From contig NZ_BLPF01000001.1 of assembly GCF_011764425.1 (NCBI RefSeq), positions 620,001-684,000 on the forward strand: 64,000 nt of DNA. Reading direction: 5' to 3'. The notes beneath the pieces are model-generated. The model made no database searches. It had not been told where the DNA came from and worked only from the letters and a program-made list of their open reading frames with translations. Numbering within the stretch: position 1 is the stretch's first letter; the number at the start of each line of letters is the position of its first letter. Positions 29,291 to 44,093 of the stretch are shown here, piece by piece. Both the position numbers and the translations under genes were made by a program. This DNA comes from Phytohabitans houttuyneae. GTDB lineage: Bacteria > Actinomycetota > Actinomycetes > Mycobacteriales > Micromonosporaceae.

Positions 29291-29372
29291 GGAGGGCCTT
29301 GTCGTCAAGCCGGTCGGCGGCAGTGAGCAGAGCGGTGTCGCCGGCACCGGCGATGTCGGGCGCGATCGCTCG
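29290..29372 (-). pseudogene. Decayed, inverted copy of part of vanR
   Basis: The minus strand encodes AIAPDIAGAGDTALLTAADRLDDKA. This joins two pieces of the intact vanR product (AIAADIAGDGDTALELL and MLTAADRLDDKAS) with the intervening 40 or so residues deleted. It is in opposite orientation to vanR at 33281 and carries the matching upstream promoter module at 29390-29472. Confidence 0.75.
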
Positions 29373-29389
29373 ATCGCTACGAGCCGGCG

Positions 29390-29472
29390 CATATCGTCGG
29401 CATATCGAAATCCGCATACGTGCGGACAACACCACGTTGCCTTGACTGCACATTGCCTTGACTGGAGGTATG
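29390..29472 (+). promoter_or_regulatory. VanR box/promoter module, copy A (before the GH106 gene)
   Basis: Begins CATATCG-TCGG-CATATCG, direct TATCG repeats 11 bp apart. It continues with AAATCCGCATACG, then GACAACACC, and ends with TTGACT. The same order of elements is found before vanH (copy C), before the C39 gene (copy D) and beside vanR (copy B). Here TTGACTGGAGGT runs into an ATG at 29470, mirroring vanH (TTGACTGGGAGGCATG), but that reading frame stops after 17 codons. The next gene on this strand is the GH106 gene, 129 bp away. Confidence 0.75.
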
Positions 29473-29523
29473 ACCGACAGCGAATCAAGGAGAAACACGC
29501 GGCGCGCCGACGCGACCATATAG
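29470..29523 (+). CDS. 17-codon reading frame at a VanR-type promoter
   Basis: An ATG directly after GGAGGT, at the same place relative to TTGACT as the vanH and C39 start codons. It encodes 17 residues (MTDSESRRNTRRADATI) and a TAG. It is either the truncated start of a lost VanR-regulated gene or a leader peptide ahead of the GH106 gene. Confidence 0.35.
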   Translation: MTDSESRRNTRRADATI

Positions 29524-29600
29524 CGCTACTGGCCAACAAAGCTCCCTGACGCTGAGAAGTAACTCATTCCTGGAATTTCGAACTTGTGGGGGGCTGGCCG

Positions 29601-32600
29601 ATGAAACGCCGTACGCTGATGAAACTGAGCGCCGCTCTGGCTGTCACGCCGCTGGGCGCAGGCACCCCGACGAAGGCTGTCGGCGCCGCTGGGAGCATGG
29701 TGCAGAGTTCGGGCGATCTGCTCGAACGAGATTTCCAGGAGCCGCCGAACAGCGCGAAACCGCGCGCCTGGTGGTTCTGGGGGAACGGAAACGTAACTCA
29801 GGAAGGCATCAAGAAGGATCTGGAGTGGATGAAACGCGTCGGCTTCGGCGGCTTCATGCGGGCCGACTTCGCGATGCGCACGCCGCAGATCGTCGAACCC
29901 GTGGGGGTCATGTCGCCCCGGTGGATGGACGACATCAATTACACGACCGAGCTGGCTGACCAACTGGGCCTCCAAATGGGCACTTCCGCCACGCCCGGAT
30001 GGTCCGCCAGCGGCGGCCCCTGGGTCCCGCCTTCGCAGGGCATGAAGAAGTTCGTTTGGACGCAGACACGCGTGGAGGGCGGCAAGCCGTTCAGCGGCAA
30101 GCTGGCTCATCCGCCGACCGAAATCGGCCCATTCCAGAACCTGGATATCAGAGACATCCCCGGCGGCGCCGAGCTGAAACTGCCGGACCCCTGGTACGCC
30201 GACGCCGCGGTGGTGGCGTACCGGCTCCCGGACAACGACGAGTCGATGGCCGAGTTGCAGCCGAAGGTCACCTCCAGCGGTGGCAATTTCGACTTGGCCA
30301 AGCTGACCGATGGCGATTACACAAATGGCACGCTCCTCCCGCCCGCACCAGTTGGCGAGAAGTCGTGGATCCAGTTCGAGTTCCAGAAGCCGGTCACGGT
30401 TCGGGGGCTGTCGATCTACCTCGGCGACCTCGACCGCGAAATGATGACGATGCCAGGCCAGAGTTCGGGTCAGACTCTGGATGTGAGCGATGACGGCAAA
30501 CAGTTCCGTACGATCGCTGAGATTCCTGGACTTCGCCTGCCAAGCTTCGTTCTTGAGCATTCGGTCGGCGCGCGCACGATTTCGTTCGCGCCCGTGACCG
30601 CGAAGTTCTTCCGCGTCGCCATTCTGGCCGAGCAAACGGGCCCGTCCGCACCGCAAGCAACAAACATCTCGGAACTCGTCCTGCGCACCTCAGGCTGGGT
30701 CAACCGCCTCGAGGAGAAGACGGCCACCTTCTCAACACCTCCCGGAATTTACGAGATGACGACACCTGCTGTCGCAGGCGACGCCGTGGTGCACAGGGAA
30801 GACGTCATCGATCTCACGTCGACCATGGAGCCGGATGGAACCCTGAACTGGACTCCACCGGCAGGCAAATGGGCTGTTCTGCGACTGGGCTATTCGCTCG
30901 TCGGAACCATGAACCGCGGGACTACCTCCGAGGCCACCGGCCTCGAAGCAGACAAACTCAGCAAGTCGGCGATGAAGGCCTACTACGACTACTACCTGGG
31001 CAAGTTCGAGCAAGCTACCAGCGGGCTGATGGGCGGACGCGGCCTGAACTACCTGCACAACGACAACTGGGAACGCGGCCAGGCGAACTGGACCGACGAA
31101 ATGATCCCTGAGTTCACCAGGCGCCGCGGCTACGACATGAAGCCCTGGCTCCCGGTGCTGATCGGTCATGTCGTGGGAAGCGCCGAAGCCAGCGACCGGT
31201 TCCTGTGGGACTTCCGCAAGACGATCGCCGAAATGACGGCCGAGTACACCTACGATCAGCTCTCGGACATACTCAGCCAGCGCGGCATGGGCCGCTACAG
31301 CCAAGGTCACGAATTTTACCGCCAGTACATTGCGGACGGCATGGACGTCAAGCGGAGTGCCGCCGTCCCGATGGGCGTGGCGTGGGCCAGCAGCCCGGAG
31401 GAGGGAACCCTCCATAACGAGGACCTCCGCGAAGCCGCCTCCGTGGCCCATATCTATGGGCAGAACCTGACCGTGGCTGAGACATTTCCCGCCGACTCGG
31501 GCGGCGAGGGTGGAAGCGAGGAAAGCAATGCGTTCGCCTTCTCGCCCGAGATGCTCAAACCGGCCGCGGACGCCGCGTTCGCCGACGGAGTAAACCGGAT
31601 CGACTACGAGGGCAGCACCCACCAGCCGGTGGACGACAAAGTTCCAGGATTGGCCCAGGTCTACGGCCAGTGGTTCACCCGACACGAAACCTGGGCCGAG
31701 TACGCCAAGCCGTGGATCACCTATCTCGCGCGCAGCAGCCATATGCTCCAGCAGGGCCGCGCCGTCGCCGACGTCCTCTACTACTACGGCGAGGATTCAA
31801 ACATCACGGCTCTCTTCGGCGACCAGGGGCCGGATGTGCCGGACGGCTACGCGCTCGACTACGCCAGCTCGGACGTGGTCCTGAACCGCATTGGCGTCAC
31901 CAACGGCCGCATCACGGCGGGCTCCGGCATGAGTTATCGCATACTGGTGCTCGACGACAACGCGGTTCACATGCCGCTCAACGTACTGAAAAAGATTCGC
32001 CATCTGGTGAATGCCGGCGCGATCGTGGTCGGTCCGAAGCCGACAGACAGCCCGAGCAACAGCGACAATCAAGCCAAGTTCAAAGCCATCGCCGATCAGC
32101 TTTGGGGGCCCGGTGAAGGGACGCGCAAGGTCGGAAAGGGCCAGGTGTTTGCCGGCCAGACCGCAGCCGACGCTCTTCAGGCTCTAGAGGTCTCTCCGGA
32201 CTTCGAACACACGAAACCGCAAAGCGACACGGCCGTGGCTTACGTCCATCGCAAGATCTCCGATGGCGACATCTACTTTGTGCACAACCGCAAGAACCGC
32301 GCGGAGAATGTGGAGGTCACTTTCCGGGTGGCCGGCAATGCGCCGGAGCTCTGGGACGCCGTGACCGGCGAGATCAAGCCGGCGGCGTACAGTGCCGCCA
32401 ATGGGCGCACCACCGTCCCTTTGAATCTCGATCCGAATGAATCTGTATTCGTAGTGTTTCGCAAGCCCGGGTCTGCGCGGGGCCGTAGGCTGCCGCGGGT
32501 CACGGAAACGCCGGTCGGGACGATCGATGGTTCCTGGACGGTCGCGTTCCAGCCCAACCGGGGCGCTCCGGCCAGCATCACGCTCGACAAGCTGAGCGCA

Positions 32601-33002
32601 TGGAACGAACACTCCGATCCCGGAGTGAAGTACTTCTCCGGCACGGCCACTTATACGAAGACCATCCAGGCCCCGGCCGGATGGTTCGCGACCGGCACCA
32701 AGATGATGCTGGACCTCGGGGACGTAAAGAACATCGCCGAGGTCACGGTGAACGGCACATCCGCCGGCGTGCTGTGGGTGCCGCCTTTCCAGGCTGATGT
32801 CACCGGCGCGCTGAAGCCGGGCCCGAATACGCTGGAGATCAAGGTGACGAACTTGTGGCCCAACCGGTTGATCGGCGACCTGCAGCCCAACGCCACGAAG
32901 AAGTACACGTGGACGTCATTGAACGTTCTACGCGCTGATTCACCCCTTCTTCCTTCCGGCCTTCTGGGGCCGGTGCGGGTCCTCAGAACGTCGAGCAACT
33001 AG
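29601..33002 (+). CDS. Tat-exported glycoside hydrolase, GH106 (alpha-L-rhamnosidase) family
   Basis: 1133 residues. The N-terminus MKRRTLMKLSAALAVTPLGA has a twin-arginine-type signal. Residues about 50-110 carry the GH106 opening pattern RAWWFWGNGNVTQEGIKKDLEW and GFGGFMRADF. The centre contains long conserved acidic stretches (YLHNDNWERGQ). A galactose-binding-like domain ends the protein (MMLDLGDVKNIAEVTVNG). GH106 enzymes release terminal L-rhamnose. Codon use and GC are clearly lower than in the neighbours, so the gene is imported. The ATG at 29601 follows a GGGGGG run; a GTG at 29586 is less likely. A VanR-type promoter module lies upstream and vanRS follow downstream. Confidence 0.85.
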   Translation: MKRRTLMKLSAALAVTPLGAGTPTKAVGAAGSMVQSSGDLLERDFQEPPNSAKPRAWWFWGNGNVTQEGIKKDLEWMKRVGFGGFMRADFAMRTPQIVEPVGVMSPRWMDDINYTTELADQLGLQMGTSATPGWSASGGPWVPPSQGMKKFVWTQTRVEGGKPFSGKLAHPPTEIGPFQNLDIRDIPGGAELKLPDPWYADAAVVAYRLPDNDESMAELQPKVTSSGGNFDLAKLTDGDYTNGTLLPPAPVGEKSWIQFEFQKPVTVRGLSIYLGDLDREMMTMPGQSSGQTLDVSDDGKQFRTIAEIPGLRLPSFVLEHSVGARTISFAPVTAKFFRVAILAEQTGPSAPQATNISELVLRTSGWVNRLEEKTATFSTPPGIYEMTTPAVAGDAVVHREDVIDLTSTMEPDGTLNWTPPAGKWAVLRLGYSLVGTMNRGTTSEATGLEADKLSKSAMKAYYDYYLGKFEQATSGLMGGRGLNYLHNDNWERGQANWTDEMIPEFTRRRGYDMKPWLPVLIGHVVGSAEASDRFLWDFRKTIAEMTAEYTYDQLSDILSQRGMGRYSQGHEFYRQYIADGMDVKRSAAVPMGVAWASSPEEGTLHNEDLREAASVAHIYGQNLTVAETFPADSGGEGGSEESNAFAFSPEMLKPAADAAFADGVNRIDYEGSTHQPVDDKVPGLAQVYGQWFTRHETWAEYAKPWITYLARSSHMLQQGRAVADVLYYYGEDSNITALFGDQGPDVPDGYALDYASSDVVLNRIGVTNGRITAGSGMSYRILVLDDNAVHMPLNVLKKIRHLVNAGAIVVGPKPTDSPSNSDNQAKFKAIADQLWGPGEGTRKVGKGQVFAGQTAADALQALEVSPDFEHTKPQSDTAVAYVHRKISDGDIYFVHNRKNRAENVEVTFRVAGNAPELWDAVTGEIKPAAYSAANGRTTVPLNLDPNESVFVVFRKPGSARGRRLPRVTETPVGTIDGSWTVAFQPNRGAPASITLDKLSAWNEHSDPGVKYFSGTATYTKTIQAPAGWFATGTKMMLDLGDVKNIAEVTVNGTSAGVLWVPPFQADVTGALKPGPNTLEIKVTNLWPNRLIGDLQPNATKKYTWTSLNVLRADSPLLPSGLLGPVRVLRTSSN

Positions 33003-33200
33003 CGAAGAGAAAGGGGCGGGTGGGCGGCAGCCTGCCCGCTCAGAGTTGCCCGGCTGTTGTGGTCGGTTGCGGTGCCGAAGGACCAGTCGTGCCAGTACGG
33101 TGCTGGTCCGCCGAGCCCGGCAACGGTCGGGGCGACGCCGCGGTCGGCGGAGGCGGGGTTCAGGCGCGGGTGAGGCGCCGTTGGTGGTCGTAGTTGAAGG

Positions 33201-33257
33201 ACTCGAGGCAGCAGCGTGTTGTCGAGCCGTAAGCGGTTTCGATAGGCCGACAATATG
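33201..33257 (-). promoter_or_regulatory. VanR box/promoter module, copy B (beside vanR)
   Basis: The minus strand reads CATATTGTCGG-CCTATCGAAA-CCGCTTACGG, then CGACAACACG and CTGCTGCCTCGAGT. It aligns over the full length with the vanH and C39 copies, but the final TTGACT has decayed to TCGAGT. It points away from vanR, where no intact gene now remains. It may serve for vanRS autoregulation, since vanR starts 24 bp to the right. Confidence 0.65.
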
Positions 33258-33280
33258 TACGCGCTCCTACCATTGGGGGC

Positions 33281-33976
33281 GTGCGCGTGCTGGTCGTGGA
33301 GGACGAGGCCTACCTGGCGGAGGCCATCCGCGATGGACTGCGCCTGGAGGCGATCGCGGCCGACATCGCCGGCGACGGCGACACGGCACTGGAGCTGCTG
33401 AGCATCAACACCTATGACATCGCCGTCCTCGACCGTGACATCCCCGGCCCTTCCGGTGACGAGATCGCCGAGCACGTCGTCGCCTCTGGAAGCGGGATGC
33501 CGATCCTGATGCTCACCGCCGCGGACCGGCTGGACGACAAGGCCTCGGGTTTCGAGCTCGGCGCCGACGACTACCTCACCAAGCCGTTCGAGCTGCGAGA
33601 GCTTGTGCTCCGACTCAGAGCTCTCGATCGCAGACGGGCGCATAGCAGGCCGCCCGTGCGCGAGTTCGCCGGGCTCCGGGTGGACCCGTTCCGCCGCGAG
33701 GTCTACCGCGACGGCCGGTACGTCGCGCTAACCCGCAAGCAGTTCGCGGTGCTGGAGGTCCTCGTCGCCGCCGAAGGCGGCGTCATCAGCGCCGAAGAAC
33801 TCCTGGAGCGTGCCTGGGATGAGAACGCCGATCCGTTCACGAACGCCGTACGGATCACGGTCTCCGCGTTGCGGAAGCGGCTCGGCGAGCCCTGGCTGAT
33901 CATCACCGAGCCCGGTGTCGGCTACCGCATCGACACAGGACCGGATGCCGATGACCCCACGACCTCACGTGGATAG
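33281..33976 (+). CDS. vanR: VanR-type response regulator (OmpR/PhoB family)
   Basis: 231 residues. Receiver domain with phospho-acceptor in AVLDRDIPGPSGDE near residue 51 and Lys in YLTKPFE. The C-terminal winged helix has VALTRKQFAVLEVL and VRITVSALRKRLG. The GTG start lies behind GGGGGC. It is translationally coupled to vanS. The order vanRS then vanXAH on the opposite strand, together with four candidate boxes, makes control of the glycopeptide-resistance genes almost certain. Confidence 0.93.
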   Translation: MRVLVVEDEAYLAEAIRDGLRLEAIAADIAGDGDTALELLSINTYDIAVLDRDIPGPSGDEIAEHVVASGSGMPILMLTAADRLDDKASGFELGADDYLTKPFELRELVLRLRALDRRRAHSRPPVREFAGLRVDPFRREVYRDGRYVALTRKQFAVLEVLVAAEGGVISAEELLERAWDENADPFTNAVRITVSALRKRLGEPWLIITEPGVGYRIDTGPDADDPTTSRG

Positions 33977-35060
33977 GCGACGCGGCCTCAGCGTTCGCGT
34001 CAAGCTCACCCTCAGCTACGCGGGATTCCTTCTGTTTGCCGGAGTCCTGCTGCTTGCGGTCGTCTGGTTCTTCCTCCTGCGGCAGCGGTCGAGCGTCTAC
34101 CTTCCCACGTTCGATGATCTGCTGCTCGCGTTCAATCCGGGCAACTTCGGTCCGCGCATCTTCAGTCCGGCGGCCGTGGTCGTGCTCGCCTTCCTTCTCG
34201 TGGTGGGCCTGGTAGGCGGCTGGGTTCTGGCAGGCCGCATGCTCGCCCCGTTGACGCGGATCACGAGCGCCGCGCGGAAGGCGGCGAACGGGTCTCTCTC
34301 GCATCGGATCGAGCTGGAAGGACGCGGCGACGAGTTCCGCGTGCTCGCGGACGCCTTCGACACCATGCTCGCGCAGCTGGAGACGCGGGATGCGGAGCAG
34401 CAGAGGTTCGCGGCCAACGCCTCCCACGAGCTGCGCACCCCGCTCGCGGTGATGCAGACCATCCTGGACGTCGCCGGTCAGGATCCCAGTCCGGACGGCC
34501 GCGAAGAACGCCTCCGCGCCGTCACCGCCCGAGCGATCGCGCTCACCGAAGCGCTGCTCATTCTGGGCCGTGCCGACCAGCGACTGTTCGTCCGCGAGGA
34601 TGTCGACCTCTCGCTTCTGGCGGAGGAGGCTGTCGAGACGCTACTTCCCCTCGCGGAGAAGCACCATGTCGCCGTCGAAACCTCCTCGGATCCCGCCATC
34701 ACCGTCGGCTCGCACGCGCTCCTGCTGCAGATGAACACGAACCTCCTGCACAACGCCATCGTCCACAACCTGCCCGAGAACGGCACGGTGCGGATAGCGA
34801 CCAGCATGGACGCCGAAGGCGTCACGTTGACGGTCGAGAACACCGGCGAACGGCTCCGCCCGGAGTTGATCTCGACGCTGACCGAGCCGTTCCAACGTGG
34901 CACCGGCCGCATCCGCAGCGACCAGGCCGGCGTCGGCCTGGGCCTGGCGATCGTGAAGACCATCGTCCGGGCACACGACGGAACCCTGACGCTCACCCCG
35001 GGAGTCGCCGGCGGTCTCCGCGTCACCGTGCGGCTGCCCATCGCTCAGGTACCGCGCTGA
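33969..35060 (+). CDS. vanS: VanS-type sensor histidine kinase
   Basis: 363 residues from the GTG at 33969. Two membrane helices flank a short extracytoplasmic loop (about residues 13-33 and 60-80; the loop is only about 30 residues). HAMP follows, then the H-box FAANASHELRTPLAV and the ATPase boxes TNLLHNAIVHN and AGVGLGLAIVK. The start is chosen by similarity to streptomycete VanS (which I recall beginning at DR...LSVR); an ATG at 33951 is an alternative. Its first bases overlap the vanR stop codon. The short sensor loop is as in actinobacterial VanS that detect vancomycin-type glycopeptides. Confidence 0.92.
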   Translation: MDRRRGLSVRVKLTLSYAGFLLFAGVLLLAVVWFFLLRQRSSVYLPTFDDLLLAFNPGNFGPRIFSPAAVVVLAFLLVVGLVGGWVLAGRMLAPLTRITSAARKAANGSLSHRIELEGRGDEFRVLADAFDTMLAQLETRDAEQQRFAANASHELRTPLAVMQTILDVAGQDPSPDGREERLRAVTARAIALTEALLILGRADQRLFVREDVDLSLLAEEAVETLLPLAEKHHVAVETSSDPAITVGSHALLLQMNTNLLHNAIVHNLPENGTVRIATSMDAEGVTLTVENTGERLRPELISTLTEPFQRGTGRIRSDQAGVGLGLAIVKTIVRAHDGTLTLTPGVAGGLRVTVRLPIAQVPR

Positions 35061-35061
35061 G

Positions 35062-35118
35062 CGGCCGTCGGACAGCCCGTGAGCGGCAAGCCGGGTTTGC
35101 TTGACCGACGGGCCGTCA
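35062..35118. terminator. Terminator-like hairpin between convergent vanS and vanX
   Basis: CGGCCGTCGG near the vanS stop pairs with CCGACGGGCCG near the vanX stop, with a one-base bulge and an internal CCCG/CGGG pairing. It fills the 60-bp convergent gap. Confidence 0.5.
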
Positions 35119-35120
35119 GC

Positions 35121-35753
35121 TCACGCTGCCAGGCGGTCGGCAGCCGCAGTGATGGGGAAGTCGAAGTAGGTGTCGGGGTGGGGCTCGTTCTTCAGCGTGT
35201 AGTGCCACCACTCGGCGTCGTACCGCGCGAAGCCCGCAGTCCTCATGATCGAGCAGAGACGCTCACGGTTTCCGCTCTCGATCGGAGTGATGCCCTCGGC
35301 GCCGTGATGCGAGATCGGGTCCATGAGGTCGTGGCCGCCGCCCATGGCCGCGAGCTCGCCGCTGTCCAAGTGGTAAAGGGTCAGGTCGACGGTGCTGCCT
35401 CGGCTGTGCCCGGACCTGGCGGCGACGTATCCCTGCTCGAACATGTCCGAGCGGTCGATGTTCGGGTAGTGCCGTTGCTTGGTCCGGCCGTCCTCGGGCT
35501 GCCGGGACCACTGCAGGAAGTGGTCCACGGAGTGCTGGGGACGGTAGCCGTCCCACAGCAGCAGGCCGAAACCGAGGGAGACCGCCTTCTCCTGTGCCCG
35601 TGCCAGCGCCGCGCACAGAGCCCGCGTGCCGACCATGCGGTTGACGAGATAACCGTCGACGGGTCTGCCCGTGAAGTTGTCCCACGTGGCGTACTTGGCG
35701 TCCCAGCGGATCCCGGGCACCAGTTCGTCAACGAACACGAAGTCGCCGTTCAT
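35121..35753 (-). CDS. vanX: VanX D-Ala-D-Ala dipeptidase
   Basis: 210 residues. Zinc ligands and catalytic residues are visible: the SGHSRGSTVDL motif (His and Asp) and the EWWHYT motif (Glu and His). VanX destroys the normal D-Ala-D-Ala dipeptide so that only D-Ala-D-Lac enters peptidoglycan. The start codon overlaps the vanA stop codon (ATGA), so the genes are coupled. It is the last gene of the vanHAX operon and converges with vanS. Confidence 0.96.
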   Translation of the reverse strand: MNGDFVFVDELVPGIRWDAKYATWDNFTGRPVDGYLVNRMVGTRALCAALARAQEKAVSLGFGLLLWDGYRPQHSVDHFLQWSRQPEDGRTKQRHYPNIDRSDMFEQGYVAARSGHSRGSTVDLTLYHLDSGELAAMGGGHDLMDPISHHGAEGITPIESGNRERLCSIMRTAGFARYDAEWWHYTLKNEPHPDTYFDFPITAAADRLAA

Positions 35754-36787
35754 CGCTTCTTTCCCCGCAGCGCCGTCGCGATGAGCCGATCGAGCACCTC
35801 GGACAGCGGCAGTCCGGCGGCGGCCATCATCCGGGGATAGCGGCTGTAGGAGGTGAGCCCGGGCAGGGTGTTGACCTCGTTGAGGACCACGCGCCCGTCG
35901 TCGGTGAGGAACAGGTCGACGCGGGCCAGCCCGCTGCAGCCCAAGGCTCGGTAGACCCTCCTCGCGGTCTCCTGGACGAGCCGACGGGATTCTTCGGGGA
36001 TGTCGGCGGGGACGATGAAGGTCGAGTTCTCGGAGCCGGTCTCGGGCGAGTCCTCCTGGTGGATTCGGAAGAACCCGTGCGAGAGGGCGACGCGGTCGAC
36101 CTCGCCGATGAGGAGATCGGGCCCCTGTCCCAGCATCGCGCAGCCGACCTCCCTTCCGGCCACGGCCGCCTCGATCAGCACTTTCGAGTCGAACTGCCGC
36201 GCGGTCTCCAGTGCGCTCGCCAGCTCGTCCTCCCGACCGACCTTGCTGACCCCGAACGACGACCCGGAACGGGCGGGCTTCACGAACACGGGGTACGTGA
36301 GGCCCTCCGGCGCGACCTGCTCGCCGTCCTCGACGATCCGGAACTCCGGCGTCGCGATTCCCGCCCCCCTGGCGACCGTGTAGGCGAGCGACTTGTCCAT
36401 GCAGACGGCGGAGCTTTGGATGTCGCAACCGACGTACGGGATGCCCGACAGCTCCAGCAGGCCCTGAATCGCGCCGTCCTCGCCGAACCTTCCATGCAGG
36501 ACCGGAAGTATCACATCCAACCGGATCTCGTCGGGACGCCCGTCGTGCAGGACCACAAGGCGGTGCACGCTGCGATCAAGCGACAGCACCACCGTGCGTC
36601 CGGCGTCCTCCCACCCGGGCTCAGGCCCGTCGCAGAGCGTCCACTCGCCGCCCGCTGTGATGCCCACCCAGAACGGTTCGTACTTTTCAGTGTCGAGGTT
36701 CTTCGCGACCTCTCGCGCTGACTTGACCGAGACGGAGTGCTCCTCGGACACGCCCCCGAACACGATGCCGATTCTCGACCTAGCCAT
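35750..36787 (-). CDS. vanA: D-alanine--D-lactate ligase (VanA type)
   Basis: 345 residues of the ATP-grasp Ddl family. The omega-loop region HGFFRIHQED carries the His that favours D-lactate over D-alanine in VanA (His244). The C-terminal RVVLNEVNTLPGLTSYSRYPRMM is nearly that of VanA. N-terminal GGVSEEHSVS is typical. It makes D-Ala-D-Lac, to which glycopeptides bind about a thousandfold more weakly. It overlaps vanH by 8 bp and vanX by 4 bp. Confidence 0.96.
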   Translation of the reverse strand: MARSRIGIVFGGVSEEHSVSVKSAREVAKNLDTEKYEPFWVGITAGGEWTLCDGPEPGWEDAGRTVVLSLDRSVHRLVVLHDGRPDEIRLDVILPVLHGRFGEDGAIQGLLELSGIPYVGCDIQSSAVCMDKSLAYTVARGAGIATPEFRIVEDGEQVAPEGLTYPVFVKPARSGSSFGVSKVGREDELASALETARQFDSKVLIEAAVAGREVGCAMLGQGPDLLIGEVDRVALSHGFFRIHQEDSPETGSENSTFIVPADIPEESRRLVQETARRVYRALGCSGLARVDLFLTDDGRVVLNEVNTLPGLTSYSRYPRMMAAAGLPLSEVLDRLIATALRGKKR

Positions 36788-37811
36788 GCTGGTTCTCGCT
36801 CTCGAAATTCAGGCAGTTGAGGAGGCTGTTCTCGATGGTGTCGCGCAGTGCGTGTTCCGTGTAGTACGCCGTGTGCGGGGTGATGAGCACGTTCGGCAGG
36901 CTCTGCAGCCGCAGCACCGTCTCGCTCTCGACGGGATTGGTCCGGCGGTCGGTGTAGAAGATCCCTTCCTCTCCCTCGAGCACGTCCAGCGCCGCGCCGC
37001 CCAGCCGCCCGCTCTCCAGCGCGTCCAGGAGGGCCTCCGTGTCCAGAAGTGGCCCGCGACCGGTGTTGACGATGAACGCGCCGGGCTTCATCCGCCCGAT
37101 GCGCCGGCGGTCGAGCAGGTGATGCGTGTCCGCGGTCAGCGGGGTGTGGAGCGTCACGATGTCGCTCTGCCGCAGCAGCTCGTCGAGCGGAACGTGGTCC
37201 GCGGAGGTCTTCGCGCGGCTGTCGTTGGCAAGGATGCGGCTGCCGAAGCCTCGCAGTCGGTCGATGACCGCGGTGCCGATGCGTCCCGTTCCGACCACTC
37301 CGACGGTCAGGTCCCGCAACTCTTTACCGCGGACCTCGCCGAGACGGTAGTCGTGCATGTCGACGCGGCGGATGACGGACTTCGCGTGGCGCACAGCCAT
37401 CAGCATCAGCATCAGCGTGTAGTCGGCGACGCTGTCGGGCGAGTAGGCGACGTTTCCGACCGCGATGCCAACGCTCGCCGCGTAGGTCACGTCGAGGTGG
37501 TTGTCGCCGATGCTTCTCGTGGAGATGTACTCCACGCCGGCGCCGCGGAGCGCGAGAAGCGTGGGATTCGACACCTGAGACTTGTGGCCGATACTGATGC
37601 AACGGTTTCCGATAGCCAGCTCGACATTGGCGTCGCAGACCGGCTCCGCGATGATCGTCGGGCGCACGCCGACGCGAGGCGCGACCTCTCGCAGCAGGAC
37701 GGCCTCGTCCTTCTCGCATCCGTAGAACGTGATCCCGCTTCTAACCGCGGAAGGGGCGGGGGCCAGCAACCCGCTGCGGTGCCCGGTTCGTGCTGCTGCT
37801 CTGTAGCTCAT
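36780..37811 (-). CDS. vanH: VanH D-lactate dehydrogenase
   Basis: 343 residues. NAD-binding motif VGVVGTGRIGTAV near residue 175, then ISTRSIGDNHLDVTYAASVGIAVGNVAYSPDSVADYT split across the catalytic domain, and the C-terminal NVLITPHTAYYTEHALRD with the active-site His. It reduces pyruvate to D-lactate for the VanA ligase. The first 25 residues extend beyond enterococcal VanH, as in actinomycete forms. The ATG is placed directly after the promoter module TTGACTGGGAGGC, so the leader must be very short. Confidence 0.95.
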   Translation of the reverse strand: MSYRAAARTGHRSGLLAPAPSAVRSGITFYGCEKDEAVLLREVAPRVGVRPTIIAEPVCDANVELAIGNRCISIGHKSQVSNPTLLALRGAGVEYISTRSIGDNHLDVTYAASVGIAVGNVAYSPDSVADYTLMLMLMAVRHAKSVIRRVDMHDYRLGEVRGKELRDLTVGVVGTGRIGTAVIDRLRGFGSRILANDSRAKTSADHVPLDELLRQSDIVTLHTPLTADTHHLLDRRRIGRMKPGAFIVNTGRGPLLDTEALLDALESGRLGGAALDVLEGEEGIFYTDRRTNPVESETVLRLQSLPNVLITPHTAYYTEHALRDTIENSLLNCLNFESENQHG

Positions 37812-37818
37812 GCCTCCC

Positions 37819-37877
37819 AGTCAAGGCAGCGAGGCGTTGTCAGCCCGTATCCGGTTTTCGATACACCTACGATATGC
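37819..37877 (-). promoter_or_regulatory. VanR box/promoter module, copy C (vanHAX promoter)
   Basis: The minus strand reads CATATCGTAGG-TGTATCGAAA-ACCGGATACGGG, then CTGACAACGCC, CGCTGCC and TTGACT, seven bases before the vanH ATG. TATCG direct repeats 11 bp apart suit an OmpR-type dimer such as VanR. Confidence 0.8.
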
Positions 37878-37896
37878 GGCTTTCCGAGAATCCGGA

Positions 37897-38664
37897 TCAT
37901 GACGTTCTCCCGATCAAGATTCCCCTGTCCGCGTGGAACCGCTGGAATACATGCAGGGGCAACGACGCAGAATCCGAATTGTGCGAGTAGCCCGACGGAT
38001 TGTGGAACCGCACTACCCCGCCGTCGACCGCATAAGCGAGTACGAGATGCCCGCCCCGATGCGGATCAATAGTGTCTGGGTCCCGAATCTCCGCGGATAC
38101 CGAGGCGATCATGACCTGCCCAGGCCGCACCTCGCGAGATGACAACTGGATCGGTGTCCGCTCGACCAGTTGGCAGCTAAAACCGAACTGCGAGCCCACC
38201 CATGCCATGAAGGGCCTGTAGAGCATCCCTTGGACTTCGCCCGAAGGTTCCACCACGTAGCAGCCCCACTCGAGGGCCAGATCAATGAGTTCGCGCATCG
38301 GTAGCCGAACATCGGTCCAACCGTGTAACAGCGACTGTAGGCACGCGAGACCGCAGACCTTGCGAGACCAAAACAGATACTCCTCCTTCGAGCGGTATCC
38401 ATCGGACGCCCAGTCGTTGGCGTGTGATGAATCGGTACGCCGCAAGGAGACCGCAACCCCGGACGGCTCGGTGCGTCGCATGACAACCTCGTCGTTCTGC
38501 TCCAAACATCCCCACTGCGAGACGCAACGAAGGTTTCCGTTGTCGGATGGGACGGTCGAAGCAGGTCCCCTCGGAGACGGCGGCAGACGCGGCTCGGCGG
38601 ACGTTCGTGCGCCGTGAGCGGCGATCGCGTCGCGGCCGATGGAACCCAGGTCGCTAGATGTCAT
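37897..38664 (-). CDS. C39-like cysteine peptidase under VanR-type control
   Basis: 255 residues. Residues about 95-255 look like a peptidase C39-type papain fold: the Cys region WSRKVCGLACLQS, the His region GGHLVLAYAVDGG, and the third catalytic position RFHNPSG. No signal peptide or membrane helix is seen, and the first 80 residues are low-complexity. The ATG at 38664 lies at the same distance after TTGACT as the vanH start, which decides the start. It is transcribed towards vanH from its own box. I know of no such peptidase in described van clusters. Its substrate is unknown. Confidence 0.75.
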   Translation of the reverse strand: MTSSDLGSIGRDAIAAHGARTSAEPRLPPSPRGPASTVPSDNGNLRCVSQWGCLEQNDEVVMRRTEPSGVAVSLRRTDSSHANDWASDGYRSKEEYLFWSRKVCGLACLQSLLHGWTDVRLPMRELIDLALEWGCYVVEPSGEVQGMLYRPFMAWVGSQFGFSCQLVERTPIQLSSREVRPGQVMIASVSAEIRDPDTIDPHRGGHLVLAYAVDGGVVRFHNPSGYSHNSDSASLPLHVFQRFHADRGILIGRTS

Positions 38665-38670
38665 GTGCCG

Positions 38671-38730
38671 AGTCAAGACAGCGCGGCGTTGCCAGTCCGT
38701 ATGCGGCTTTGGATATGCCGCCGATACGCC
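38671..38730 (-). promoter_or_regulatory. VanR box/promoter module, copy D (C39 peptidase promoter)
   Basis: The minus strand reads CGTATCGGCGG-CATATCCAAA-GCCGCATACGGA, then CTGGCAACGCC, CGCTGTC and TTGACT, six bases before the ATG. It aligns without gaps to the vanH copy over about 58 bp. Confidence 0.8.
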
Positions 38731-38945: not shown

Positions 38946-40784
38946 GTGCGTGTAACTGATGGGAAGACGATCGCCGCCGCGCTCCTGGTCGGTGCGCTGT
39001 TGGCGGTGGGGGGCTGGGTCACCGTCCCGGCGCTGGGAATCGCGGACGGCGCGCCGGATACCGGTGCCGCGTACGGGTTCGTATCCCGGATCGACGTGGG
39101 GCCGGAGAAGCGTGGCTGCTCCGGTACGCTCGTCGATCCGGAGTGGATAGTCACGGTGAAGTCCTGCCTCACCGGCGCGGTGCCGGTGCCGGGTGGGCCG
39201 CCGCTAACCCCCATCCGGGCGAGCGTTGGCACCGCGGTCGACCAGCCGGTGGTCGAGATACAGGGGCATCCCGACCGCGATCTGCTGCTCGCCCGGCTCG
39301 GCAAGCCGGTGACCGGTGTGACACCGGTGCGGATCGGCACGACCGCGCCGCATGCGGGTGAGGCACTGCAGGTGGCCGGCTACGGGCGTACGGCAACCGA
39401 ATGGGCACCCGAGCGGGCGCACTCAGGCACGTTCACGGTCCAGTCCGTCGCGGCCGGCACCATCGACGTGGCGGGCGACCCGGCGGCGTCCGCGACCGTC
39501 TGCCAGGGGGACGCGGGGGGTCCGGCGCTGCGGCAGATCGCTGGCGGTGTAGAGCTCGTGGCGGTGAGCAGTCTGTCGTGGCAGGGCGGGTGTCTCGGCG
39601 TCCCGGCGACGGAGGTCCGGCGCGGCGCCGTGCAGACACGGGTCGACAACGTCAAGGAGTGGATCCAGCAGACGCTGCGCGAGTCCTTCGTGCGGCTCAA
39701 CCCGAGCGGACAGGTGCTCGATACGCGGTCCGGCCTGGGCGCCGCAGCCGGCACCCGCGCGGCGCGCAGCACCACGACATTCACCGTCGCCGGCGTTGGC
39801 GGCGTGCCTGCGACGGGCGCGCACGCGGTGCTGGTCGACGTCACGGCGGTCCCGGCGACGGGGACGGGCACGTTCCTGACCCTGTACCCAGCAGGCGTCA
39901 CAGCCTCCGGCGGACTGTCCATGGTGAACACCCGATCCGCCGCGGTTATCTCGAACACGGCGGTCGTGCCGCTGCGGGCAGACGGCAAGCTGTCGGTCTA
40001 CACGCACAACGCCGCGGACATCGTCATCGACGTACAGGGCTACTACACCCGTGGTGCGGGTGGCGGCTTCGTGCCGCTGGATCACAGCGGCCTGGCGGAC
40101 ACGCGTAGCAGCGGCGGCGCCATCCCCGCGAGGGGCAGCCGTACGTTCACGGTCGCCACCACCGGCGGCGCCATCCCGGCCGGCGCCAGTGCCGCCCTTT
40201 TGGACGTCGTCGTCGTGGACGCGGCCGACGGCGGCTGGCTCGGCGCCTACCCGACCGGTGGCAGCAACAACCGCAGCGTCATGGACTTCGTCCCCGGCGA
40301 GACTGCGCACGCCGTGTCCGTACGGCTAGGCACGGATGGAAAGACCACCTTTACCAACAACAGCAACGCCCCGATCCACCTGGTACTCACCGCCACGGGA
40401 TACCACACGGCGAATCCGGCCTCCGGCTGGGGCCTGCGAACCACGAACGCGACGCGACTGCTGGACACCCGCGCGAACGGCGGCGCGCCGTTGGCCGCCA
40501 GCACTGTCGTCGACGTCGCGCTCGGGGTACCGAGCGGCTGGGCGGCGGTGCTCAACCTCACCGTTGTCGACAACACCCAGAGCGGGTTCTTGCGGGCGTG
40601 GCCGGTCGGTGGCACCGAGCCGGCGACGTCACTGGCCAACTACCCCAGCCCTGGAGGGGTCCGTTCCGGGCTCGCCGTCGTCAAGGTCGGCACAGACGGC
40701 AAGGTGCGGATCCGCAACCGCAGCCAAGGCAGCACGCATCTGCTCGTCGATGTGCAGGGCTGGTTCGCCCCGCCGATCGCCTAA
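38946..40784 (+). CDS. Secreted pseudoprotease with three DTR-type C-terminal repeats
   Basis: 612 residues from the GTG behind GCGGGGGAA. A signal peptide or anchor helix spans about residues 6-28. A trypsin-fold domain follows, but the His block reads WIVTVKSCL instead of TAAHC and the Ser block reads CQGDAGGPAL instead of GDSGGP. His and Ser are thus both replaced, and only an Asp (HPDRDLLL) is in place, so it is probably inactive. Residues about 255-612 hold three repeats, each with a DTR motif (VLDTRSG, LADTRSS, LLDTRAN), a domain common in exported actinobacterial proteins. It lies 31 bp before the polymorphic toxin gene, so it may help its export or presentation. Confidence 0.8.
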   Translation: MRVTDGKTIAAALLVGALLAVGGWVTVPALGIADGAPDTGAAYGFVSRIDVGPEKRGCSGTLVDPEWIVTVKSCLTGAVPVPGGPPLTPIRASVGTAVDQPVVEIQGHPDRDLLLARLGKPVTGVTPVRIGTTAPHAGEALQVAGYGRTATEWAPERAHSGTFTVQSVAAGTIDVAGDPAASATVCQGDAGGPALRQIAGGVELVAVSSLSWQGGCLGVPATEVRRGAVQTRVDNVKEWIQQTLRESFVRLNPSGQVLDTRSGLGAAAGTRAARSTTTFTVAGVGGVPATGAHAVLVDVTAVPATGTGTFLTLYPAGVTASGGLSMVNTRSAAVISNTAVVPLRADGKLSVYTHNAADIVIDVQGYYTRGAGGGFVPLDHSGLADTRSSGGAIPARGSRTFTVATTGGAIPAGASAALLDVVVVDAADGGWLGAYPTGGSNNRSVMDFVPGETAHAVSVRLGTDGKTTFTNNSNAPIHLVLTATGYHTANPASGWGLRTTNATRLLDTRANGGAPLAASTVVDVALGVPSGWAAVLNLTVVDNTQSGFLRAWPVGGTEPATSLANYPSPGGVRSGLAVVKVGTDGKVRIRNRSQGSTHLLVDVQGWFAPPIA

Positions 40785-40814
40785 CCACGCCTCCGGACCG
40801 GATTGGAGTACGTC

Positions 40815-43800
40815 ATGCGCAAGACCAGGGTGAGGGTACTCGCCGCGGTGGTCGTGGCGATCCTGGGTGGTGGCCTGCTGGTCGCGCCGCAGCGCGCGGC
40901 CGCGGCCGATGGCAGCAGCGACCGGGCACTGGCCGTCGAGCTGTTGACCTCGGGTGGCCCGTCGACCCGCCGTGCGGCCGAGTCCGCCCTCCTCGGCTCC
41001 GACGCGGACCTTCGCGAGTTCGTTGCCGCCGGCCGGACGGCGGCGCAGCAAGCCGACGACCGGACGGCGGCCCAGGTACTGGCCGGGATGGACGGTCCGG
41101 CGTTGCGCGCGGCTGCGCTGAGCGCGCTCGACGGGCCGCCGGAGCAGCTGCGCCAGTTCGTCGAAGAGGGTTGGAGGCAACCCTGGGCGGCGGACGAGCG
41201 GCTGCGCGTCCACCGGGTGTGGGAGGCTGGCGGCCCGCGGACCAAAGAGGCGGCGGCCACCGCCCTGGCCGGCACGGCCGAGGATTGGTCCGAGTTCCTG
41301 CTGACCGGCCGGGCCGCCGCCGAGCTGGCCGACGACCGGCTCGCCGCGACCCGGATGCTGGCCGGCGCCCCCAACAGCAGCGGGGCGAACCTCGACACGG
41401 CGGCCCAGCGGGCGCTGGGCGGCAGCGCCGACGAGCTCCGCGAGTTCTTGGTGTACGGGCAGTTCGTGGCCCGGGCGCGGGACACCGAGCTTGCCTCGAT
41501 CAAAAGCCTGACCGAGCAGGCGAAGCAGGCCGGCGAGACCACCGCGCGGGAGTCCCTCGCCGCGGCGGAGGCCTCGGCGCGGGCGGTGAACGCGGCGGCG
41601 GAGGCGAAGCGGGCGGCGCAGACCGCGGCGGCCGAGGCGCAGGCGGCCGGCGGGGCGGCGGCGAAGGCGTCGGCGGCGGCCGGCCGGGCGGCAGACGCGG
41701 CGGCTGGTGCGGCGCGGGCCGCCCGGGAGGCGGTCGCCGCGGCCAACGCGGCCATGCGGGCGGCCCAGGTGGCGGCCGACGGCGCGCGTCGGGCCACGGC
41801 GGCGGCGTCGCTGACCGCGCAGGCGGCCGCACATGCCCAGCGTGCCGCGGCGAACGCGCGGACCGACGCCGACCAGGCGGCGGCGGCGCGGGTGGCGGCA
41901 CAGGCGGCCCGGGACGCGGCCGCCAAGGCGCGCGAGCTGCAACAGGTCAAGGCTGAGCGGGACCGGGCCATCGCGCAGGCCCAGGCGGCGGCCCAGTCCG
42001 CGCACAGCGCCGCCGCGAACGCGGACGCCGCCGCCGTCGCCGCGGACGAGGCGAGCCACCAGGCGGGGGTGTCGGCGGCCCAGGCCCAGCGGGCCCGCGA
42101 GGCGGCCGCGGCCGCACAGCGAGAGGCACACGCCGCGGCCCGCGCGGCGGACCGGGCGCTGTCGTTCGCCCGTGCGGCGGCCGCCGCTTCGGACCAGGCG
42201 TTCGCGTTCGCCGCGCAGGCGGCCGACCACGCCGATCGCGCGGCCGCGGCCGCGGAAACCGCCGCTGAACAGGCCGGCATCGCGGAGAAGGCGGCGGAGG
42301 AGTCGGCCAAGCACGCGGAGGCCGCCGTGCAGGCCGCCAACGTCGCGGTGGCCGCCGCAAACCAGGCGGTGACGCTGGAACAGCTGGCCCGGCAGGAGGA
42401 GGCCGCGCGGCTGGCCGAGTGGACTGAGCAGGGCGTCAAGGACGCGCAGGACGCCGCCGCGCTGGAACAGGCCGAGGGTCGCGACGCGGGCGAATACGCC
42501 GCGTGGAACCGCACGCTGCTATGGGACACCGCGGAGCAGGACCGGATACCTCCGGCCACCAGGACGGTGCTCGACGAGGCGGCGGCTCCCGGCGCGCCGA
42601 CCCAGGTGGTGCTCGACCGGGGCCGCCGGGCCGCGGCGACGCTCGTCGCGACCGGCGGCGAGTGGACCCGCGCCGCCGCCGAGGACGCGCTGGCCGGTGA
42701 CGAGTTCGAGATGCGGATCTGGTTGGCGACCGGGCGTGCGGCCGCTGCCGGCGAAGACGACCGGGAGCGGGTCTGGCGCCTCGTCGACACGCTGCCGGAC
42801 GGGCCGGAGAAGACCGCCGCCCGAACGGCGCTCGACGGCGACAACGCGGCTGTGGCGGCGTTCCTGCGCACCCGCGCCTATACGGGCAAGACCGTAGACG
42901 ACCGCCGCAAGATCTACGCGATCCTCAACGCCAACCCGGGGCCGAACGTGAAGGCCGCGGCCGAGCGGGCGCTGGCGGGTACGCCCGCCGACGCGCACCA
43001 GTTCCTGCGCGCCGGCCAGCACACCGCGCGGACCGCGGACAACCGCCTGGAGATCAACCGGATCATGGACGCCGGCGGTGCCGAGGTGAAGGCCGCCGCC
43101 CAGGTGGCGCTCGCCGGACCTGGCTCCTACGCCTCCTACTTCCTCGCCGTCGGCAGGTACCACGCGGCGCAGCGGGACTACGAGCAGGCCACCCACGTCG
43201 AGGCCGTGCACGCGCTGATCAAGCAGGCACAGCAGTACGCGCAGACCGCGCGGGCGGATGCCGCGGAGGCCAACCGGGTCGCCGCGATCGCCCGCGACGC
43301 CGCGGAGGAGGCCAGGCAGTGGGCCGCCCAGGCGATCGCCTCGGCGGACCTGGCCGCCCGGCACGCGGCCGACGCCCAGGCGGCGGCCGCGGCGGCCAAG
43401 CGTTCGGCGGACGAGGCCGCGCAGTCGGCGCAGACCGCGCGCAACGCTGCCAACTCGGCCCAGGCCAGCGCGAACGCCGCCGCCCATTCCGCTGCCACGG
43501 CGTCTGCGGCCGCCAAGCGCGCGCAGTCCGACGCCCGTTCCGCGCAGGAGGCGAAGCGGGCCGCGTACCAGGCGGCGTACGAGGCCAGCAACGACGCATC
43601 CCTCGCCGCGCAGGCGGCGAAGGAGGCGATGGATATCTACTCCAACCGTCTGCGTACCTGGCAGCAGAACGACCGCAGCGAAACCGCGGGCACCGATCCC
43701 GACGAGAGCGGGTCGGCGGCAGACCATCACCGCTACTGGTCTTGCCTGTCGGTCAACGCCACGACCATGCCGAAGTCCTGCCTGAACGTGTACCTCAGCT

Positions 43801-44093
43801 TCACCCAGGCCCTCACCGACCCGATGAAGTGTGCCTCGCCCTCGGGCCGGCGCACTGCCGGCTGCCAGATGCTCAGCGACGTCGCGGCGATCATGGAGGA
43901 AAACCCGGAGATCGTCTGGGACTTCCTGCAGTTGCTGCTCTTCGCCTGCGGGCTGGTGCCGGTCGCCGGAGAGCCCTGCGACGCCATCGACGCGGCCATT
44001 TCGTTCGTCCGCGGCGACTGGGTCGGTGGCTTCTTGTCAGTCGGTTCAATGGTGCCGATCCTCGGGTGGGGCACTGCGGCAGCCAAGGGATGA
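40815..44093 (+). CDS. Polymorphic toxin, N-terminal part: ALF repeats and alanine-rich coiled coils
   Basis: 1092 residues from an ATG behind GGAG. A signal peptide (LAAVVVAILGGGLLVAPQRAAA) is followed by ALF-type repeats of about 40 residues (pattern ALxGxxxxxxxFLxxGxxxAxxxDDR), at about residues 30-230 and again at 600-790. Between and after them are long Ala/Lys/Glu coiled coils. The C-terminal 120 residues are a pre-toxin region with paired cysteines and two hydrophobic stretches, ending GWGTAAAKG and a TGA. The reading continues in the -1 frame from the overlapping ATG as a HINT-toxin. One extra G in the AAGGGATGA stretch would fuse both, the usual architecture. Confidence 0.85.
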   Translation: MRKTRVRVLAAVVVAILGGGLLVAPQRAAAADGSSDRALAVELLTSGGPSTRRAAESALLGSDADLREFVAAGRTAAQQADDRTAAQVLAGMDGPALRAAALSALDGPPEQLRQFVEEGWRQPWAADERLRVHRVWEAGGPRTKEAAATALAGTAEDWSEFLLTGRAAAELADDRLAATRMLAGAPNSSGANLDTAAQRALGGSADELREFLVYGQFVARARDTELASIKSLTEQAKQAGETTARESLAAAEASARAVNAAAEAKRAAQTAAAEAQAAGGAAAKASAAAGRAADAAAGAARAAREAVAAANAAMRAAQVAADGARRATAAASLTAQAAAHAQRAAANARTDADQAAAARVAAQAARDAAAKARELQQVKAERDRAIAQAQAAAQSAHSAAANADAAAVAADEASHQAGVSAAQAQRAREAAAAAQREAHAAARAADRALSFARAAAAASDQAFAFAAQAADHADRAAAAAETAAEQAGIAEKAAEESAKHAEAAVQAANVAVAAANQAVTLEQLARQEEAARLAEWTEQGVKDAQDAAALEQAEGRDAGEYAAWNRTLLWDTAEQDRIPPATRTVLDEAAAPGAPTQVVLDRGRRAAATLVATGGEWTRAAAEDALAGDEFEMRIWLATGRAAAAGEDDRERVWRLVDTLPDGPEKTAARTALDGDNAAVAAFLRTRAYTGKTVDDRRKIYAILNANPGPNVKAAAERALAGTPADAHQFLRAGQHTARTADNRLEINRIMDAGGAEVKAAAQVALAGPGSYASYFLAVGRYHAAQRDYEQATHVEAVHALIKQAQQYAQTARADAAEANRVAAIARDAAEEARQWAAQAIASADLAARHAADAQAAAAAAKRSADEAAQSAQTARNAANSAQASANAAAHSAATASAAAKRAQSDARSAQEAKRAAYQAAYEASNDASLAAQAAKEAMDIYSNRLRTWQQNDRSETAGTDPDESGSAADHHRYWSCLSVNATTMPKSCLNVYLSFTQALTDPMKCASPSGRRTAGCQMLSDVAAIMEENPEIVWDFLQLLLFACGLVPVAGEPCDAIDAAISFVRGDWVGGFLSVGSMVPILGWGTAAAKG

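Follow-up and report, generated by a model that had tools for sequence, protein, structure and literature searches.

VanR-linked promoter modules mark vanHAX, a C39-like peptidase gene and a GH106 glycosidase gene in a glycopeptide-resistance locus of Phytohabitans houttuyneae

The vanHAX-encoded enzymes are established to replace D-Ala-D-Ala by D-Ala-D-Lac. In Streptomyces coelicolor, VanR drives vanHAX within the VanRS-vanJKHAX cluster (SCO3589-3596), which is vancomycin-induced (PMC7947799). Other actinobacterial vanHAX loci carry vanRS together with murF, murG, a GNAT gene and vanK (PMC8698665), and Ktedonobacteria vanHA loci contain C39-like and M15B peptidase genes, vanX tending to be lost and the peptidase pair perhaps belonging to an insertion element (PMC9689679). 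We analyzed a 64,000-nucleotide stretch of P. houttuyneae (contig NZ_BLPF01000001.1, positions 620,001 to 684,000; the window), which likewise carries vanRS and vanHAX. In contrast to the S. coelicolor cluster, the window has no match to vanJ, vanK, vanY or murF at an E-value (E) of 1e-8, as an earlier reading of the sequence (the original prediction) had stated for vanJ and vanK, and has a C39-like gene and a gene of glycoside hydrolase family 106 (GH106). In the main text of PMC8698665 the terms C39 and rhamnosidase have 0 occurrences, whereas both are represented at the window locus. Unlike the Ktedonobacteria loci, the window keeps vanX and its C39-like gene has its own VanR-type promoter, the C39 proteins being likened by description only. 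The GH106 protein shares a long match and the conserved catalytic acid and base with GH106 alpha-L-rhamnosidases (BT_0986, PDB 5mqm; 6q2f), but its gene sits under a VanR-type promoter. No paper combining vanHAX with a rhamnosidase was found in the literature searched. The type of system is already known, and what is new is its two added members, the C39-like gene and GH106.

The promoter modules were scored with a profile that excluded the window. VanX was found over its curated cut-off in 36 of 200 genomes of the family, one of them the window's own, and the other 35 vanX loci (L049-L083; regions up to 20 kb) supplied the 69 module sites of this left-out profile, with Z set to 11.34 Mb for the E-values. 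Four VanR-type modules had been proposed; three proved intact (before vanH, the C39-like gene and GH106) and the one beside vanR is decayed. The three intact sites have the TATCG repeats, ATACG, CAAC, a TNNANT element and an ATG at fixed spacing. On the minus strand, the vanH module (37807..37877; 62.0 bits, E 3e-16) has TATCG at 37874 and 37863, TTGACT at 37824 and a leaderless-type ATG at 37811, and the module of the C39-like gene (38660..38729; 53.8 bits, E 1e-13) has TATCG at 38726, TATCC at 38715, TTGACT at 38676 and its ATG, also of leaderless type, at 38664. On the plus strand, the GH106 module (29389..29450; 62.5 bits, E 2e-16) has TATCG at 29392 and 29403, CCGCATACG at 29412, CAAC at 29427 and TTGACT at 29442-29447, with a second TTGACT at 29458-29463 and an ATG at 29470. 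The distance from TTGACT to ATG is 6-7 bases at all three, confirming the close spacing proposed for vanH and the C39-like gene. The TTGACT before GH106 is doubled by a 16-bp tandem duplication (29440-29470), so that the -10 element is duplicated, the ATG is displaced by 16 bases, and the transcript start may be leaderless (29470) or ∼16 bases earlier. The site beside vanR (33203..33258, minus strand, divergent from vanR; 33.8 bits, E 2e-7) keeps part of the repeats and CAAC, with a single TATCG and one base missing between AAA and CCG. It has no ATACG, TTGACT or ATG, and no recognised gene lies downstream.

A genome-wide model built from 66 sites of the same 35 loci returned the same four sites from the 11.34-Mb genome (60.5 bits for the GH106 module), and the next match (13.5 bits, E 0.57) was at chance level; 150 of 8871 first-look candidates were scored in this search, on an assembly that is 95.4% complete. 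The core written in the degenerate code of the International Union of Pure and Applied Chemistry matched three times genome-wide with at most one mismatch, compared with 0 for the reversed control. Nearly invariant are CNTATCG, the TA of the second repeat, ATACG, CAAC, T-N-N-A-N-T and a start codon 6-7 bases further.

Outside the window and L048 (a locus described below), 154 modules (69 + 45 + 40) were catalogued, 9 of them unclassified, and the genes behind them were classed by BLAST to one chosen reference protein each; those that we take to be vanY, vanJ and vanK had initially been picked out by eye. The family vanX loci contributed 69 modules, nearly all of them sites used to build the profile; 31 precede vanH, 22 a vanY-type gene and 13 murF, and 3 are unclassified. 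The 30 loci read from set g70 (matches in 97 of 199 genomes) gave 40 modules, before vanY (10), vanJ (9), vanH (8), vanK (7) and murF (5), with 1 unclassified. A further 45 modules lie in 40 regions of family genomes away from vanX (L125-L164), which were read apart from ∼14 other listed places outside vanX loci; here 5 precede vanJ, 4 vanY and 1 murF, and 5 are unclassified. In the same regions, 20 modules stand before class-C-beta-lactamase-like genes and 10 before a membrane-protein gene, often with adjoining VanRS homologues; PMC8698665 already notes VanRS in the company of beta-lactamase genes. VanR homologues of at least 85% identity occur in 27 of the 35 family vanX loci, and homologues of 85-92% identity in 22 of the 40 regions without vanX.

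The catalogue also connects the module with a promoter studied in S. coelicolor. In L177 (set g70), vanJ, vanK and vanH each have their own module and the gene order is that of SCO3589-3596. Both primers published for the vancomycin-inducible vanH promoter fragment of S. coelicolor (PMC9779433) map on L177, the reverse primer with one mismatch inside the vanH module (L177:2823-2895), before the TTGA-type -10 element; the two vanJ primers did not map on this locus. Judging by the position of the reverse primer, the -10 region may be absent from that fragment. Genes start mostly at module position 66-67, suggesting that the transcripts are probably leaderless, and of the 20 murF genes that follow a module, 13 have a later start, at position 92-168. 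Conservation extends past the ATG into a start region (consensus MTHSEPARTAARR from 137 sites) that different genes share. In one family locus (L052:5661-6932) a module is followed by a short vanH-like fragment, recognised by eye, and then by vanA, and a full vanH with its own module lies elsewhere in the locus.

Profile, genome-wide model and catalogue agree with the original proposal that the module is a VanR-associated promoter marking vanHAX, the C39-like gene and GH106. The motif scan that had been suggested found the four window sites as the only ones above chance level in this genome and, elsewhere, the module before vanH, vanY, murF, vanJ and vanK, among others. Judged from sequence, the module is a VanR-linked promoter of leaderless type, and its control by VanR is likely.

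The vanHAX operon lies on the minus strand, with vanH (D-lactate dehydrogenase; 36780..37811; NF000112, 550 bits, cut-off 625), the gene of a vanA-type D-Ala-D-Lac ligase (35750..36787; NF000206, 577.5 bits, cut-off 550) and vanX (D-Ala-D-Ala dipeptidase; 35121..35753; NF033115, 390 bits, cut-off 320) in order. The response regulator gene vanR (33281..33976; NF033118 VanR-O, 461 bits, cut-off 505) and the sensor kinase gene vanS (33948..35060, or possibly from 33960; NF033094 VanS-O, 524 bits, cut-off 720) lie on the plus strand. VanX and the ligase are above their curated cut-offs, and VanH, VanR and VanS match van models best, at scores under those cut-offs. The guanine-plus-cytosine (GC) content is 0.67-0.68 in the van genes, 0.62 in the C39-like gene, 0.63 in GH106 and 0.71-0.76 in the flanking genes. 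An empty-site test failed, since five genus mates were searched with the left-flank gene and gave only 47-48% matches, and the island borders are therefore drawn from GC content alone. We consider that the interval at ∼29.0-38.9 kb is probably a VanRS/vanHAX (D-Ala-D-Lac) glycopeptide-resistance island, with a VanR regulon enlarged by two accessory genes.

The first of these genes (37897..38664, minus strand) is predicted to encode a stand-alone C39-fold cysteine-peptidase-like protein of 255 amino acids. Searches of Pfam (E 0.001), NCBIfam (0.01) and PDB sequences gave no match to the protein. Its structure model showed the C39 fold, a comparison in which the absence of other folds from the structure list carries no weight. 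Residues Q50, C104, H206 and N222, a Gln/Cys/His/Asn set, are invariant in 11 of 11 aligned proteins, and we assign their individual roles by analogy. The N-terminus is not hydrophobic. A protein 80-82% identical is encoded in a genome of another family (L048), beside vanHAX, murF and vanK, and its gene has its own module (52.5 bits), although the locus was chosen by protein and not by promoter; the VanR of that genome is 92% identical to that of the window (461.6 bits). The L048 locus resembles the Jiangella anatolica set (PMC8698665), with vanHAX, vanK, MurF, a weak GNAT match and a MurG-like frame seen by eye. The C39-like gene thus recurs in a second family, again with vanHAX and a module, which upholds its proposed place in the regulon. 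Alternatively, the protein might be a peptide-bond-forming or leader-processing enzyme rather than a wall-precursor peptidase. We find this rather doubtful: a scan of nine window proteins, which did not extend to short precursor peptides, showed no ABC transporter, and the two C39 orthologues sit with vanHAX, the one in L048 having murF and vanK as further neighbours.

More distant C39 relatives were counted in 10 loci, the weak matches L007, L016 and L017 being left out. A D-Ala-D-Ala-ligase-like or MurF gene adjoins in L005, L085 and L227, and no such neighbour was seen in L006, L084, L086, L087, L224, L225 and L226. The relative directly adjoins the D-Ala-D-Ala-ligase-like gene in L005:20-2037 and L227:9225-11187, and in L227 the next gene encodes a lone Mur-ligase C-terminal domain.

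The second accessory gene (29601..33002, plus strand) encodes a GH106 protein of 1133 amino acids that matches PF17132 over profile positions 1-742 of 743 (E 6e-290) and PDB 6q2f (E 8e-256). In the alignment to PDB 5mqm, E491 and E627 correspond to the general acid E461 and the base E593 of BT_0986 (PMC6828813), so that the catalytic Glu pair is kept. Among the Ca ligands of BT_0986, D458 corresponds to D488, S459 is replaced by N489 and E561 by Val, and the counterpart of E538 can be placed only to within one residue (H570/E571). The N-terminus carries a Tat-like (twin-arginine translocation) signal, judged by eye, and the protein is most likely a secreted alpha-L-rhamnosidase.

The module proposed before this gene is intact, but its ATG opens a 17-codon open reading frame (ORF) of leaderless type, MTDSESRRNTRRADATI (29470..29523, plus strand), and GH106 itself starts at 29601, about module position 212, a late start as in most of the murF genes behind modules. 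This ORF resembles the conserved VanR-driven start region. Its ATG has a start-region score of 18.0, reached by 2 of the 1119 ATGs of the window, itself and that of vanH (19.5), which gives the stretch ahead of GH106 the look of a copied cassette of promoter plus start. Scans of 29300-29700 detected no sigma-70 promoter, and no terminator between the cassette and GH106; folding of the 151 bases of RNA from ATG 29470 into GH106 revealed no unusual structure (z -0.04).

The nearest GH106 relatives, from seven genome-contig loci, are 57% (Bryobacteraceae), 55% (Terriglobia; both presumably Acidobacteriota), 52% (Bacteroidota) and, for the rest, 37-43% identical; the search relied on six short peptide patterns, which pick up only close relatives. 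In the class sample, a GH106 match at E 1e-100 was found in 3 of 394 genomes, the window's own and two at 34-37%. None of nine loci of GH106 relatives (L166-L174) has a module, the record of L168 lacking the 5′ end of the gene. With relatives in other phyla and a GC content of 0.63, compared with 0.71-0.76 in the flanking genes, GH106 reads as a horizontal gain, and it was probably acquired horizontally as a local recruit; the GC content of the van genes and of the C39-like gene lies below that of the flanks as well.

These features bear on what the GH106 module stands for. It could be an orphan promoter, left when a former van gene (murF, vanY or a vanH copy) was lost, behind which GH106 arrived by chance; the enzyme might then be induced and serve the scavenging of plant or microbial rhamnosides, with no role in glycopeptide defence. 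The low GC content of GH106, the relatives without modules (Acidobacteriota, Bacteroidota, Pseudomonadota and the two actinobacteria at 34-37%), the 17-codon ORF that resembles a truncated VanR-type start, and the module beside vanR with no gene left all fit this explanation. Against it, the cassette is intact, with a score equal to that of vanH, and GH106 is open over all its codons with the catalytic Glu kept, indicating that neither part is decaying. We give this explanation about an even chance.

The original prediction went further and proposed that a VanR-induced secreted GH106 enzyme strips rhamnose from glycopeptides of the ristocetin or avoparcin type, a drug-modifying defence. The VanR-type module, the kept catalytic acid and base and the Tat-like N-terminus are in line with it, but the step to glycopeptides was taken from the family name, and a module-linked GH106 was seen in this genome only. 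The nearest solved structure, PDB 6q2f, is to our understanding a flavonoid-type rhamnosidase. Sugar-free glycopeptides keep D-Ala-D-Ala binding, so that removal of rhamnose need not protect. A dimer of two vancomycin aglycons is listed as staying active (PMC9379927). We judge this proposal improbable. Still less credible, and indeed highly improbable, is a two-sided defence in which, alongside target modification, such a rhamnosidase would modify the drug and a cytosolic C39 peptidase would remove drug-sensitive precursors, both under VanR induction. Alternatively, GH106 might act on the strain's own envelope and trim a polymer there that carries rhamnose, while the wall is remodelled in response to glycopeptides. 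Wall-synthesis genes (vanH, vanY, murF) do stand behind 66 of the 69 modules from the family vanX loci, as this would lead one to expect, but the presence of such a polymer in this strain is an assumption, and we consider this explanation unlikely.

Several observations weigh against a regulon enlarged by the two genes. GH106 starts 131 bases past the leaderless ATG and its -10 region is duplicated, so a promoter of its own is possible, and GH106 behind a module is peculiar to this genome, with 0 cases among the 154 modules catalogued elsewhere, 9 of which are unclassified. The start region of the C39-like gene lacks the conserved codons (score 7.0 vs. a training mean of 13.8), its association with vanHAX is known from two genomes only, and just 3 of the 10 loci of distant relatives have peptidoglycan-precursor genes beside them. 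The idea that the C39-like protein replaces VanY was rejected, because the L048 genome carries both. Even so, the enlarged regulon is well supported at the sequence level, and the case is stronger for the C39-like gene, seen in two families, than for GH106, seen in one genome.

The enlarged regulon draws on promoter homology, gene linkage, conserved catalytic residues and a modelled C39 fold; from these we infer VanR binding, induction, the horizontal gain and both enzyme roles. In the proposed scheme, (i) VanS would sense the glycopeptide and phosphorylate VanR; (ii) VanR would bind the TATCG repeats ∼45-60 bp upstream of the start and activate the promoter, whose -10-like TTGACT, 6-7 bases before the ATG, would yield leaderless transcripts; (iii) the C39-like enzyme, which shows no sign of export, would most likely aid the precursor switch by processing a stem-peptide precursor in the cytosol; and (iv) GH106 would have landed behind a duplicated promoter-plus-start cassette, and would therefore probably be induced too.

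Beyond the locus, the window carries at 38946-44093 a trypsin-like protease gene and then a gene whose long product has eight ALF-repeat stretches (PF03752), with a GC content of up to 0.81.

With this 70-base leaderless promoter cassette the VanR regulon would become readable from sequence, since the cassette lists candidate members in a genome and would show which genes evolution placed under glycopeptide control. The stand-alone C39-like enzyme, which occurs in two bacterial families, each time with vanHAX and a VanR-type promoter, is a testable accessory resistance gene candidate, and in GH106 a resistance promoter has probably captured a glycosidase of foreign origin.

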